Shown piece by piece: positions 4,434 through 7,093 of a stretch of 36,498 nucleotides of DNA (position 1 is its first letter; the number at the start of each line of letters is the position of its first letter). The position numbers were made by a program, and so were the translations under genes. Below the pieces are notes generated by a model. It did not search any database. It had not been told where the DNA came from and saw only the letters and a program-made list of their open reading frames with translations. Where the stretch lies: the NCBI GenBank assembly GCA_024653905.1, contig JANLGZ010000036.1, positions 1-36,498 on the forward strand. The letters run 5' to 3'. This DNA comes from an archaeon. GTDB taxonomy: Archaea > Iainarchaeota > Iainarchaeia > Iainarchaeales > Iainarchaeaceae.

Positions 4434-4949
4434 ATGGAAGAAGACCTGATAATTAAACTCATAATTTATCTTGCGCCAATGTACTTTGCAAACAGTTCAG
4501 CAATGCTTTTTGGCGGAAAAACACCGATAGATTTTGGTAAAAATTTTCTGGACGGAAAACGTCTTTTCGGAGACGGGAAAACCTTCAAAGGGCTTTTTTT
4601 TGGAACTTTAATTGGAACAATAATTTCTGCAATCATTCTTACTTTTCTTCCTGAGCTGACATTATTATTAACTCCAAATTATCTGCTCCTTGGATTTTTG
4701 CTTTCAGGCGGGGCACTTATAGGAGATATTGCTGGAAGTTTTTTCAAAAGAAGAAATGAAATAAAGCAAGGAGGAGAAGTTCTCTTTCTTGACCAATTGG
4801 ATTTTGTTATAGGCGGAATGATAATTGGAAGTTTAGTTTACGTTCCAACTTTTTACGAGATTATTTATGCAATTATAATAACACTTATTGTTCACAGGGC
4901 TTCTAATTTTGTCGCATACAAAATAAAACTCAAAAAGGTGCCATGGTGA
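4434..4949 (+). CDS. carS: CDP-archaeol synthase
   Basis: YFANSSAMLFGGKTPIDFGKNFLDGKRLFGDGKTFKGLFFGTLIG...GDIAGSFFKRR...FLDQLDFVIGG motifs. Confidence 0.92.
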   Translation: MEEDLIIKLIIYLAPMYFANSSAMLFGGKTPIDFGKNFLDGKRLFGDGKTFKGLFFGTLIGTIISAIILTFLPELTLLLTPNYLLLGFLLSGGALIGDIAGSFFKRRNEIKQGGEVLFLDQLDFVIGGMIIGSLVYVPTFYEIIYAIIITLIVHRASNFVAYKIKLKKVPW

Positions 4950-5431
4950 AATTTGATAAAAGATATTTAATTTTTCTTTTGAAATTCTTTGTAATTTTTC
5001 TTTTTTTGGAATTTTTTATTTTTGCAACTAATTTAACTTTTTTACAAGAATTTATTGCAAAAACCCAGGCAGAATTTTTCGGATTAAGGTACGCAGGTAA
5101 TTTTGTTTTTGTTTCTGATGGTATTTTTGAAATAGTTCCTGAATGCACAGGCATTGTAAGCACAAGCATTCTTGCTTCAATAATTTTTTCCCTGAAAAAA
5201 CCTGAAATGAAAAAGAAACTATTGATTTTTGGATTAGGTTTTGTGCTTTTATTTATTGTAAATTATTTAAGAGTTTTAAGCATTATCTGGATTGGAATGG
5301 AATATGGAATAGAAAATGCTGAAATCCTGCATGTTACAAGCTGGTTTGCTTCATCAGGATTGGTGATTGCATTATGGTATTATTTCACAAAAAGGATTAC
5401 AGGAGCAAAGAACTTCAAAGGTTTTTTGTGA
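4943..5431 (+). CDS. Archaeosortase/exosortase-family transpeptidase, minimal form
   Basis: Multi-TM protein with PECTGIVSTSI (Cys), NYLRVLSIIWIG (Arg) and HVTSWFASSGLVI (His), the Cys-Arg-His arrangement of the exosortase/archaeosortase superfamily. Confidence 0.82.
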   Translation: MVKFDKRYLIFLLKFFVIFLFLEFFIFATNLTFLQEFIAKTQAEFFGLRYAGNFVFVSDGIFEIVPECTGIVSTSILASIIFSLKKPEMKKKLLIFGLGFVLLFIVNYLRVLSIIWIGMEYGIENAEILHVTSWFASSGLVIALWYYFTKRITGAKNFKGFL

Positions 5432-5494
5432 AGATGAACACCCAAGCCGAAAAACTTATAGTGTTATTATAGAATAGTCCGAAAATTAAATTTT
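5432..5494 (+). repeat. 63-bp direct repeat R, copy 1
   Basis: agatgaacacccaagccgaaaaacttatagtgttattatagaatagtccgaaaattaaatttt, identical to 6032-6094. Confidence 0.95.
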
Positions 5495-5505
5495 CTGAAA
5501 CTTAA

Positions 5506-5751
5506 TCAGTAAACGTGTCCCCTGTCATCAATCCATGCGAATTTTATGGTCTTACCGATTATCAAGTAAATAATTCTGAGTTTTTCAATTCTCTCACTTT
5601 TATAATTTTGGAGCGGAGCATGAAGTGGTTTTCCAAGCAAAGGGTTTTCAATGATTTTCAATAATTTCTTGTCAACAAGTTCCTGCTGATGACCATCCAG
5701 CTTCTTGTACTCTTTCTTGAAACGGTCGGAACGAAAATAAACGTAACCCAT
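5506..5751 (-). CDS. RelE-family mRNA interferase-like toxin
   Basis: MGYVYFRSDRFKKEYKKLDGHQQELVDKKLLKIIENPLLGKPLHAPLQNYKSERIEKLRIIYLIIGKTIKFAWIDDRGHVY. Confidence 0.82.
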   Translation of the reverse strand: MGYVYFRSDRFKKEYKKLDGHQQELVDKKLLKIIENPLLGKPLHAPLQNYKSERIEKLRIIYLIIGKTIKFAWIDDRGHVY

Positions 5752-5957
5752 TATTTTTTCAGCTCTGCAAGGAATTCATCAACAGAAGAAAAAGCCTTCC
5801 CCTTATTGCTTTCGGTATCATTAATTGCCACCCAAAACTCAGGGTTGGAGTACATTCGCAAATCATCCATATATTCCTGCAAATCACCCCTTATTTTAGC
5901 CGCTTCTTTAGTCAATTCCTTGATAGCCTTTTTTTGAATCAAAGTAGTGGAAGTCAA
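5751..5957 (-). CDS. RelB-like antitoxin; TTG start proposed
   Basis: LTSTTLIQKKAIKELTKEAAKIRGDLQEYMDDLRMYSNPEFWVAINDTESNKGKAFSSVDEFLAELKK; SD aggtga just upstream of TTG at 5957; abuts the toxin ORF. Confidence 0.7.
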   Translation of the reverse strand: MTSTTLIQKKAIKELTKEAAKIRGDLQEYMDDLRMYSNPEFWVAINDTESNKGKAFSSVDEFLAELKK

Positions 5958-5963
5958 ACAAAT

Positions 5964-6011
5964 CACCTAACAATATACTGATTTGCAAAGAATTTATTCC
6001 TTTTGGTCAAC
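5964..6011 (-). promoter_or_regulatory. Shared promoter element P, copy 1 (drives RelBE-like module)
   Basis: 48-bp block matching 6563-6610 at 45/48 positions; minus strand gives ccaaaaggaataaattc (BRE/TATA-like) and a taggtg SD. Confidence 0.75.
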
Positions 6012-6031
6012 TCCTTTAGAACCGTTAATTG

Positions 6032-6094
6032 AGATGAACACCCAAGCCGAAAAACTTATAGTGTTATTATAGAATAGTCCGAAAATTAAATTTT
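6032..6094 (+). repeat. 63-bp direct repeat R, copy 2
   Basis: Identical to 5432-5494, offset exactly 600 bp. Confidence 0.95.
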
Positions 6095-6112
6095 TTTGAA
6101 ACCAATAATCCA

Positions 6113-6334
6113 TTAAAGCAATTTAATGAATTCTATTCTTGATAATCCAAAATCTTGTTTGATAATCTTATTTAATAATCCTGGCGGAATCGGTGTTGAA
6201 TGAACTGCGATTGTAAGAACTCTGCCATCTTTGTGCTTAAATGTTTTATGAGCCCCTTTTTGCCTCACTTCTACAAATTCAAGTTTAATTGCTATTTTAA
6301 CCAAATCCTTACCGCTAACCACGGGAAGCTTCAT
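6113..6334 (-). CDS. hicA: HicA-family toxin
   Basis: MKLPVVSGKDLVKIAIKLEFVEVRQKGAHKTFKHKDGRVLTIAVHSTPIPPGLLNKIIKQDFGLSRIEFIKLL, dsRBD-like HicA signature. Confidence 0.9.
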   Translation of the reverse strand: MKLPVVSGKDLVKIAIKLEFVEVRQKGAHKTFKHKDGRVLTIAVHSTPIPPGLLNKIIKQDFGLSRIEFIKLL

Positions 6335-6555
6335 ACTACAACCTTAACCATGCCTATAACAGAACTCGAATCAACTTTGATTTTCTCACTTTTCAAAACA
6401 CTTAAATGCAATTCAATAGCCTCTTTAATTCCCTTCATTAAAGCCTCAATGGAGCCTGCATACGAATAACAACCCGCCAAAGCAGGCACAGAAGCATAAA
6501 ACTGGCCAGATTCATTATCCTTCTCAATAACAACATCAAATTCCTTAACCTTCAC
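6331..6555 (-). CDS. hicB: HicB-family antitoxin; GTG start proposed
   Basis: VKVKEFDVVIEKDNESGQFYASVPALAGCYSYAGSIEALMKGIKEAIELHL; 4-bp overlap with hicA; aggtgg SD. Confidence 0.88.
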   Translation of the reverse strand: MKVKEFDVVIEKDNESGQFYASVPALAGCYSYAGSIEALMKGIKEAIELHLSVLKSEKIKVDSSSVIGMVKVVV

Positions 6556-6562
6556 AAAAAAC

Positions 6563-6610
6563 CACCTAATAATATACTTACTTGCAAAGAATTTATTCCT
6601 TTTGGTCAAC
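6563..6610 (-). promoter_or_regulatory. Shared promoter element P, copy 2 (drives HicBA module)
   Basis: Matches 5964-6011 at 45/48; the 29 bp ttgcaaagaatttattccttttggtcaac are identical. Confidence 0.75.
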
Positions 6611-6750
6611 ATTTCTGGCAAGTGAAATGAAGACTCGCCGAACTATACCTATATTTCATAAAGATTAATTTAAGAATTTCTGACTGTTTTTGATTGGCAT
6701 ATAATTGATTTGAAGTCTAAATTTAAATACTGAAAAATAGCAGTAATTCT

Positions 6751-7008
6751 ATGGATTTGAAAAAACTTCTAAAACCAAATATTGGAAAAATCATATTCAC
6801 CCTTGTCGCATATGGACTCATCAAAGTCTTATTCACAGGCATTGGTGGCATGGTTTGCCCAACAGGAACAATTGCATATTATACAATACTAGGGCACACA
6901 GGAACCTGTCTTGCACAAGGAGAAGCAGTAGTCTACAATATAATTGACAACCTATTTTTGATTGCTGCAACATACCTAATCTCTTGTGGGCTGCTCAAAA
7001 ACAAATGA
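6751..7008 (+). CDS. Small hypothetical membrane protein
   Basis: 85-aa ORF with two hydrophobic segments; TATA-like aaatttaaatac ~30 bp upstream. Confidence 0.65.
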   Translation: MDLKKLLKPNIGKIIFTLVAYGLIKVLFTGIGGMVCPTGTIAYYTILGHTGTCLAQGEAVVYNIIDNLFLIAATYLISCGLLKNK

Positions 7009-7093
7009 GTTCATTTTTTCTTAGAATCCATAGTAGATATGAAAATCTCGCCGAAGAATAGTTCCAGTCACAATGAATTTTTTATAAAAAAAA

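Follow-up and report, generated by a model that had tools for sequence, protein, structure and literature searches.

The interval between the artE and secD genes in the DNA analysed here is occupied by a tandem array of small cassettes separated by copies of a short core that reproduces the end of the coding sequence of scpA, which encodes the kleisin of chromosome segregation. The same format recurs in related genomes: the cores are followed by coding tails, the units are homologous from core to core, both empty and occupied alleles of the targets exist, and the cargo, in units of about 0.4–2.2 kb, is mostly of the toxin-antitoxin (TA) or defence type. Small cassettes moved by site-specific recombination at the scpA-derived core, with a recombinase supplied in trans, are probably the correct explanation. 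The window, by which we mean the whole stretch of 36,498 nucleotides (positions 1–36,498 of JANLGZ010000036.1, assembly GCA_024653905.1), is contig C24 of G000, a 1.15-Mb MAG of a small archaeon belonging to Ca. Diapherotrites. Of the genomes compared, G001 represents a sister species and G005 a different genus of the same family; the comparison set consists of MAGs throughout, and some contigs break off within arrays.

Based on the alignment with G001, the 1662-bp array of the window is a clean insertion between secD and artE: identity is 84% up to about 7092 and again from about 5429, and the two flanks are contiguous in G001 (between positions 1703 and 1704). The features of the array are as follows.

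5430..7091, no strand assigned: whole insertion, 1662 bp, between the 3' ends of artE and secD (from the alignment with G001)
5432..5454, minus: core 1, within R1, TTTTTCGGCTTGGGTGTTCATCT; degenerate copy of the scpA 3' end, frame shifted
5455..5505, minus: r arm of cassette 1, from the ParE stop to core 1 (R1 scores 69 bits in the model for 5432–5499)
5506..5751, minus: toxin of the ParE/RelE superfamily, 81 aa, 54% identical to the ParE of the G005 cassette
5751..5957, minus: partner antitoxin in the ParD position, 71 aa, 52% identical to the G005 partner
5958..6031, minus: P1, promoter/ribosome-site stretch plus ScpA-like tail of cassette 1 (..GVDQKE, then a stop at 5994–5996)
6032..6054, minus: core 2, within R2, identical to core 1
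6055..6112, minus: r arm of cassette 2, from the HicA stop to core 2
6113..6334, minus: HicA toxin, 73 aa (PF07927, 54 bits, cut-off 27)
6331..6555, minus: HicB antitoxin (PF15919, HicB_lk_antitox, 36 bits, cut-off 27)
6556..6629, minus: P2, promoter stretch plus ScpA-like tail of cassette 2 (SLARNVDQKE, then a stop)
6626..6646, minus: core 3, TTCGGCGAGTCTTCATTTC; degenerate, with a one-base deletion; outer bound of the HicBA cassette
6751..7008, plus: predicted membrane protein, 85 aa, encoded on the strand opposite to the TA genes as cargo of the third cassette; no family match
7036..7055, minus: core 4, intact, TTCGGCGAGATTTTCATATC, followed in frame by FFGEIFISTMDSKKK and a stop; end of the array beside secD

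All four TA genes lie on the minus strand, so that in gene direction a unit consists of P, antitoxin, toxin and R. The antitoxin of cassette 1 has a probable TTG start at 5957, preceded by GGTGAT, and a GTG start at 6555 is likely for HicB, judging from AGGTGG and from G005, the start at 6621 in the ORF table being too far upstream. HicA and HicB form one operon, and both domains exceed the Pfam gathering cut-offs that were used throughout. The toxin of cassette 1 falls below them (ParE-like_toxin, 23.8 bits against 28; ParE_toxin, 20 against 23), and its partner belongs to no family. The array adjoins an archaeosortase/exosortase-family gene at 4943–5431 (TIGR04178, above cut-off).

An earlier note on this DNA had described two unrelated TA modules between matching flanks, and its measurements were reproduced: R1 (5432–5494) and R2 (6032–6094) are identical at 63 of 63 positions, with their starts 600 bp apart, P1 (5964–6011) and P2 (6563–6610) match at 45 of 48, and the coordinates give 580 and 579 bp from the start of R to the end of P. 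The likeness of P1 and P2 in fact stretches to 55 nt (91%). Profile searches also bore out the difference in cargo, ParDE-like in one unit and HicBA in the other, and no significant similarity was found between the DNA of the two interiors (the best hit, on opposite strands, has E = 0.026). As the interiors are unrelated, simple tandem duplication was rejected. An assembly artefact is unlikely, because an exact 63-bp repeat is beyond chance and because a MAG assembled independently (PCWY01000077.1) contains four copies of R in the same layout as in the window. What the note did not mention is that R contains a copy of the 3' coding end of scpA, that scpA anchors two arrays, and that a third cassette exists at 6637–7050.

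R and P, which the note had treated as independent flanks, are parts of one junction that runs, along the direction of the toxin genes, through r arm, core, tail and promoter; the mobile cassette that it had offered as one option is supported. In an alignment of all copies, R is divided into an r arm of about 45 bp after the toxin stop, reading …TATTCTATAATAACACTATAAG, and a core of about 20 bp, reading TTTTTCGGCGARRTNTTCAT. The core (TTCGGCGARRTNTTCAT) duplicates the last coding part of scpA (…FFGEIFI…); native ScpA ends in ..WQDEFFGEIF followed by I or L across the order, and in each of two arrays (contig C45 of G000 and C64 of G005) one of the cores belongs to scpA itself (SMC_ScpA), forming its 3' coding end. 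Core copies also exist without r, and those in R1, in R2 and at 6637 are slightly broken. P begins inside the ScpA-like C-terminal tail that follows the core and is mostly open up to a stop codon, the first part of P (..GACCAAAAGTAA) being the end of this tail. At 22 core copies outside scpA, no stop interrupts the frame for at least 10 codons from the core, and 18 of them reach one within 10–17 codons, as in the tails FGEIFISTMDSKKK, FGEVFISLAKRTDQK and FGEVFISINGSEKRDQK, each ending at a stop. The copies vary as codons do, with a mean entropy of 0.53, 0.17 and 1.01 at codon positions 1, 2 and 3, respectively. The r arm is on the side of the core that faces the cassette, and directly after the scpA core in G005 the r model finds an inverted match (23 bits, E = 7e-6); near-inverted arms around the core are what a recombinase site would be expected to have.

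A sequence model of r plus core, run over 80 genomes of the order, found nine sites of 61–75 bits, spread over four genomes (G000, G002, G005 and G006), all of the window's family, to which strong matches were confined; matches of 16–19 bits in other genomes are taken as chance or bare cores. Both R and P recur, with other cargo, in the window's own genome and in relatives, where the note had suggested looking for them, and the same R-cargo-P units speak for the mobile TA format that it had offered as one possibility. The window's genome carries a third such unit on C45, with an R-like site at 1054–1101, a ParDE pair and P at 1544–1613. On a single contig of G005 there are four R, each located after the stop of a toxin gene (YoeB/RelE-like, ParDE, PemK/MazF and HicBA). 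In G002 a YoeB/RelE-like unit is found behind the NAD synthetase gene, and in G006 a unit with DUF1428 cargo appears to lie behind secY once contigs C3 and C5 are connected end to end. Beyond scpA, copies are thus found directly behind the ends of other genes, among them secD/artE (in the window), NAD synthetase and secY. Other families of the order have inserts at the scpA end with different arms (Fic, DUF6036). Because the cores of G028 and G029 differ at synonymous positions from those of the window's family, these elements and the window-family cassettes may be several types that share one target by convergence.

Orthologous cassettes define what moves. The ParDE cassettes of C45 and G005 are 84% identical over 655 bp with a core at both ends, and the YoeB/RelE-like cassettes of G002 and G005 are 82% identical over 758 bp, an identity that ends exactly at TTTTTCGGCGA. 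Homology thus extends from core to core, and the moving unit is the whole core-bounded cassette. The RelE-like pair is 89–92% identical between G002 and G005 while ScpA is only 69% identical, which points to horizontal transfer of this cassette between genera. Whole cassettes common to different genera, together with the empty site described below, are what a mobile format predicts. The note's other suggestion, that cargo was replaced by homologous recombination in the shared R and P flanks, would account for the 91% likeness of P1 and P2 over 55 bp and for the tail and P types, which ParDE and HicBA carry the other way round in G005 than in the window; this swap suggests some later shuffling near P. 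Yet orthologous cassettes are homologous along their full length from core to core, other cassettes, the YoeB/RelE-like ones, have a different promoter with the same r plus core, and single insertions with a core at both ends exist. Such replacement is therefore insufficient alone and secondary at most, and we consider it improbable as the explanation of the arrays.

Empty and occupied alleles were found at two kinds of target. In the G029 MAG, an empty scpA end is present on C22 and an occupied one on C21, in which a 20-bp core is duplicated around a 2.1-kb insert and the native tail is displaced by 2.1 kb. This insert carries a gene for a 547-aa DUF6036 nucleotidyltransferase-like protein. 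At secD/artE, no core was found in the empty sites of G001, G002, G004 and G005, and the cores at both ends of the window array are thus left unexplained by conservative site-specific integration alone; an earlier solitary core, or the capture of an array already bounded by cores, are possibilities. An empty NAD-synthetase site could not be found in the relatives, none of which carries the gene. The secD–artE gap has been used independently in G006, in which an AbiEii/AbiEi pair lies between two cores whose orientation is opposite to that in the window (C22, 2958–5160).

These sites also bear on a transposon-like origin, in which r would be a terminal inverted repeat and the core a long target-site duplication, with casposon-like targeting of 3' ends. 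The inverted r beside the scpA core in G005 and the direct repeats that bound single inserts are in keeping with it. But the sequence after the left core is coding and element-specific, with no copy of the target, and nothing like r is seen at the left end of most cassettes. The window insert, moreover, has cores where the empty site has none, so that its repeats are not copies of the target, and neither a transposase nor Cas1 is present within the TA units. We regard such an origin as quite improbable.

Arrays begin at scpA in C45 of G000 and C64 of G005, with every core in the same orientation. In both, scpA bears a cassette tail, and it is the last core that is followed by a tail of the native type (FLSLN.., the form in G001 and G006; G002 has FLCLN..). 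In 7 of 57 genomes, the 6 kb or so that follow scpA contain core copies on its strand, 11 in all, where the background frequency of the same core pattern would give about 0.2 by a hand estimate. A single displacement step is seen around AAA_14/DUF4143 ATPase genes in G004 and in C44 of G006, around a Fic gene and others in G039, and around a small insert in G028. Between the two scpA ends of G039 (C12, 1388–3492), a 213-aa protein without a family is encoded in addition to the Fic protein.

We therefore prefer site-specific recombination at the core. A complete cassette is arranged as the right half of the core, a ScpA-like tail usually with its stop, a promoter, the TA genes, the r arm and the left half of the core. 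In circular form it would be recombined at a core by a trans-acting recombinase, most likely a tyrosine recombinase. On insertion at scpA, the last ten or so codons would be exchanged for the tail of the cassette and the native tail pushed downstream; since the cassette supplies its own tail, scpA would stay intact. Repeated insertion would then build an array, which the toxins may stabilise.

No recombinase was found near any cassette, in MAGs that are incomplete. The only tyrosine recombinase found in G000 is XerA (NF040815, 274.8 bits, cut-off 220; the integron-integrase model gives 200.9 bits, below its cut-off of 265), a single PF00589 match is present in G002, and both genomes carry cassettes; no serine recombinase was found in 11 genomes, likewise incomplete MAGs. 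As the units have no recombinase gene of their own, the enzyme, if recombination at the core is correct, acts in trans, and would be XerA or a visiting integrase. Integrases of about 410–450 aa in G003, G005, G006, G007 and G039 have neither core nor r around them, and a cassette-borne integrase was rejected. A viral carrier was rejected too: two scans of viral contigs gave no match to the r-plus-core or core patterns. One virus- or plasmid-like contig of G005 (C68, 411–5067) could be where a trans-acting recombinase comes from: it encodes a tyrosine recombinase of 442 aa and an ATPase-like replication protein of 512 aa, but no core is nearby.

A special case of the preferred explanation is that the host XerA recombines the core/r site, the cassettes being an archaeal counterpart of dif modules. 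Their sites would then be expected to resemble the chromosomal dif, an 11-6-11 inverted repeat; the site seen here matches the scpA end. The recombinase content of G000 and G002 would agree with this special case, as would the fact that dif modules of Acinetobacter are small, contain no recombinase, are bounded by recombination sites and in some instances carry TA pairs (PMC6449649). The cassettes resemble such modules, presumably moved by host recombinases, in lacking their own enzyme in a host that has Xer, but dif modules are bacterial, mostly plasmid-borne and flanked by dif-like sites. Since a viral or plasmid-borne integrase could equally act in trans without its gene remaining in the genome, a role of XerA is possible, although we would not call it likely.

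The r-plus-core sites have no conserved fold (consensus, –0.45 kcal/mol; no compensatory pair), and a function of R as an RNA structure is unsupported. The same result weighs against true integron cassettes of the CALIN type with attC sites. Integron cassettes and CALINs are known from archaea (PMC9668308), and the tandem, single-operon cassettes in one orientation, the co-oriented sites, the TA cargo and the lack of a nearby integrase are indeed like theirs. Nevertheless, an attC fold is missing, the RYYYAAC/GTTRRRY pair was not seen by eye, and the anchor is scpA, whose coding sequence forms the core, in place of attI and intI. We hold integron cassettes in the strict sense to be very improbable here.

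Two other systems are similar in their target. SCC-type elements insert at the 3' end of a conserved protein gene, restore its C-terminus and form composite arrays of units without a recombinase. The scpA cassettes share these three traits, but SCC units are larger and depend on Ccr serine recombinases, of which none was found here. The islands at ssrA in Dehalococcoides are arranged in tandem and separated by direct repeats, about 20 bp long, of the 3' end of a single-copy gene; about half have no integrase, and half have a serine recombinase module (PMC3146451). As in these islands, or in CIMEs formed by accretion, the units described here have direct repeats of a single gene's 3' end, that of scpA, as their bounds, and empty target alleles exist (C22 against C21 in G029; G001 against the window); the window array is itself located at secD/artE, yet bounded by scpA-end copies. 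The differences are that the Dehalococcoides islands are much larger and target a tmRNA gene, whereas a protein gene is the target of the 0.4–2.2-kb units, for which no recombinase was found.

To our knowledge, little is known of how DPANN archaea with tiny genomes gain and exchange genes, and the cassettes bounded by scpA ends suggest a little-known, integron-like way to collect and swap stability and defence genes. The proposed recombination site is coding sequence of a chromosome-segregation gene, and each cassette would supply a replacement C-terminus. In a bolder form, which we consider doubtful, this would be a cassette system specific to Diapherotrites, in which the host XerA acts at the scpA-derived core and each cassette brings a new kleisin C-terminus, an integron-like platform tied to chromosome segregation. 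In the papers searched, scpA is nowhere described as a site of integration in archaea, although this does not prove that no such report exists. A surplus of scpA ends is a simple marker by which such cassettes can be recognised in any related genome, and the system offers a concrete test of whether TA pairs are kept for the stabilisation of arrays. On C45 of G000, the ParE gene of the third unit, at 1102–1355, carries a frameshift and a stop codon that disrupt it; the partner gene is intact. On the same contig, a small cysteine-containing ORF (2353–2547) starts at the GTG of GAGGTGTTCATC, within a core, and this core may thus have become the start of a gene.
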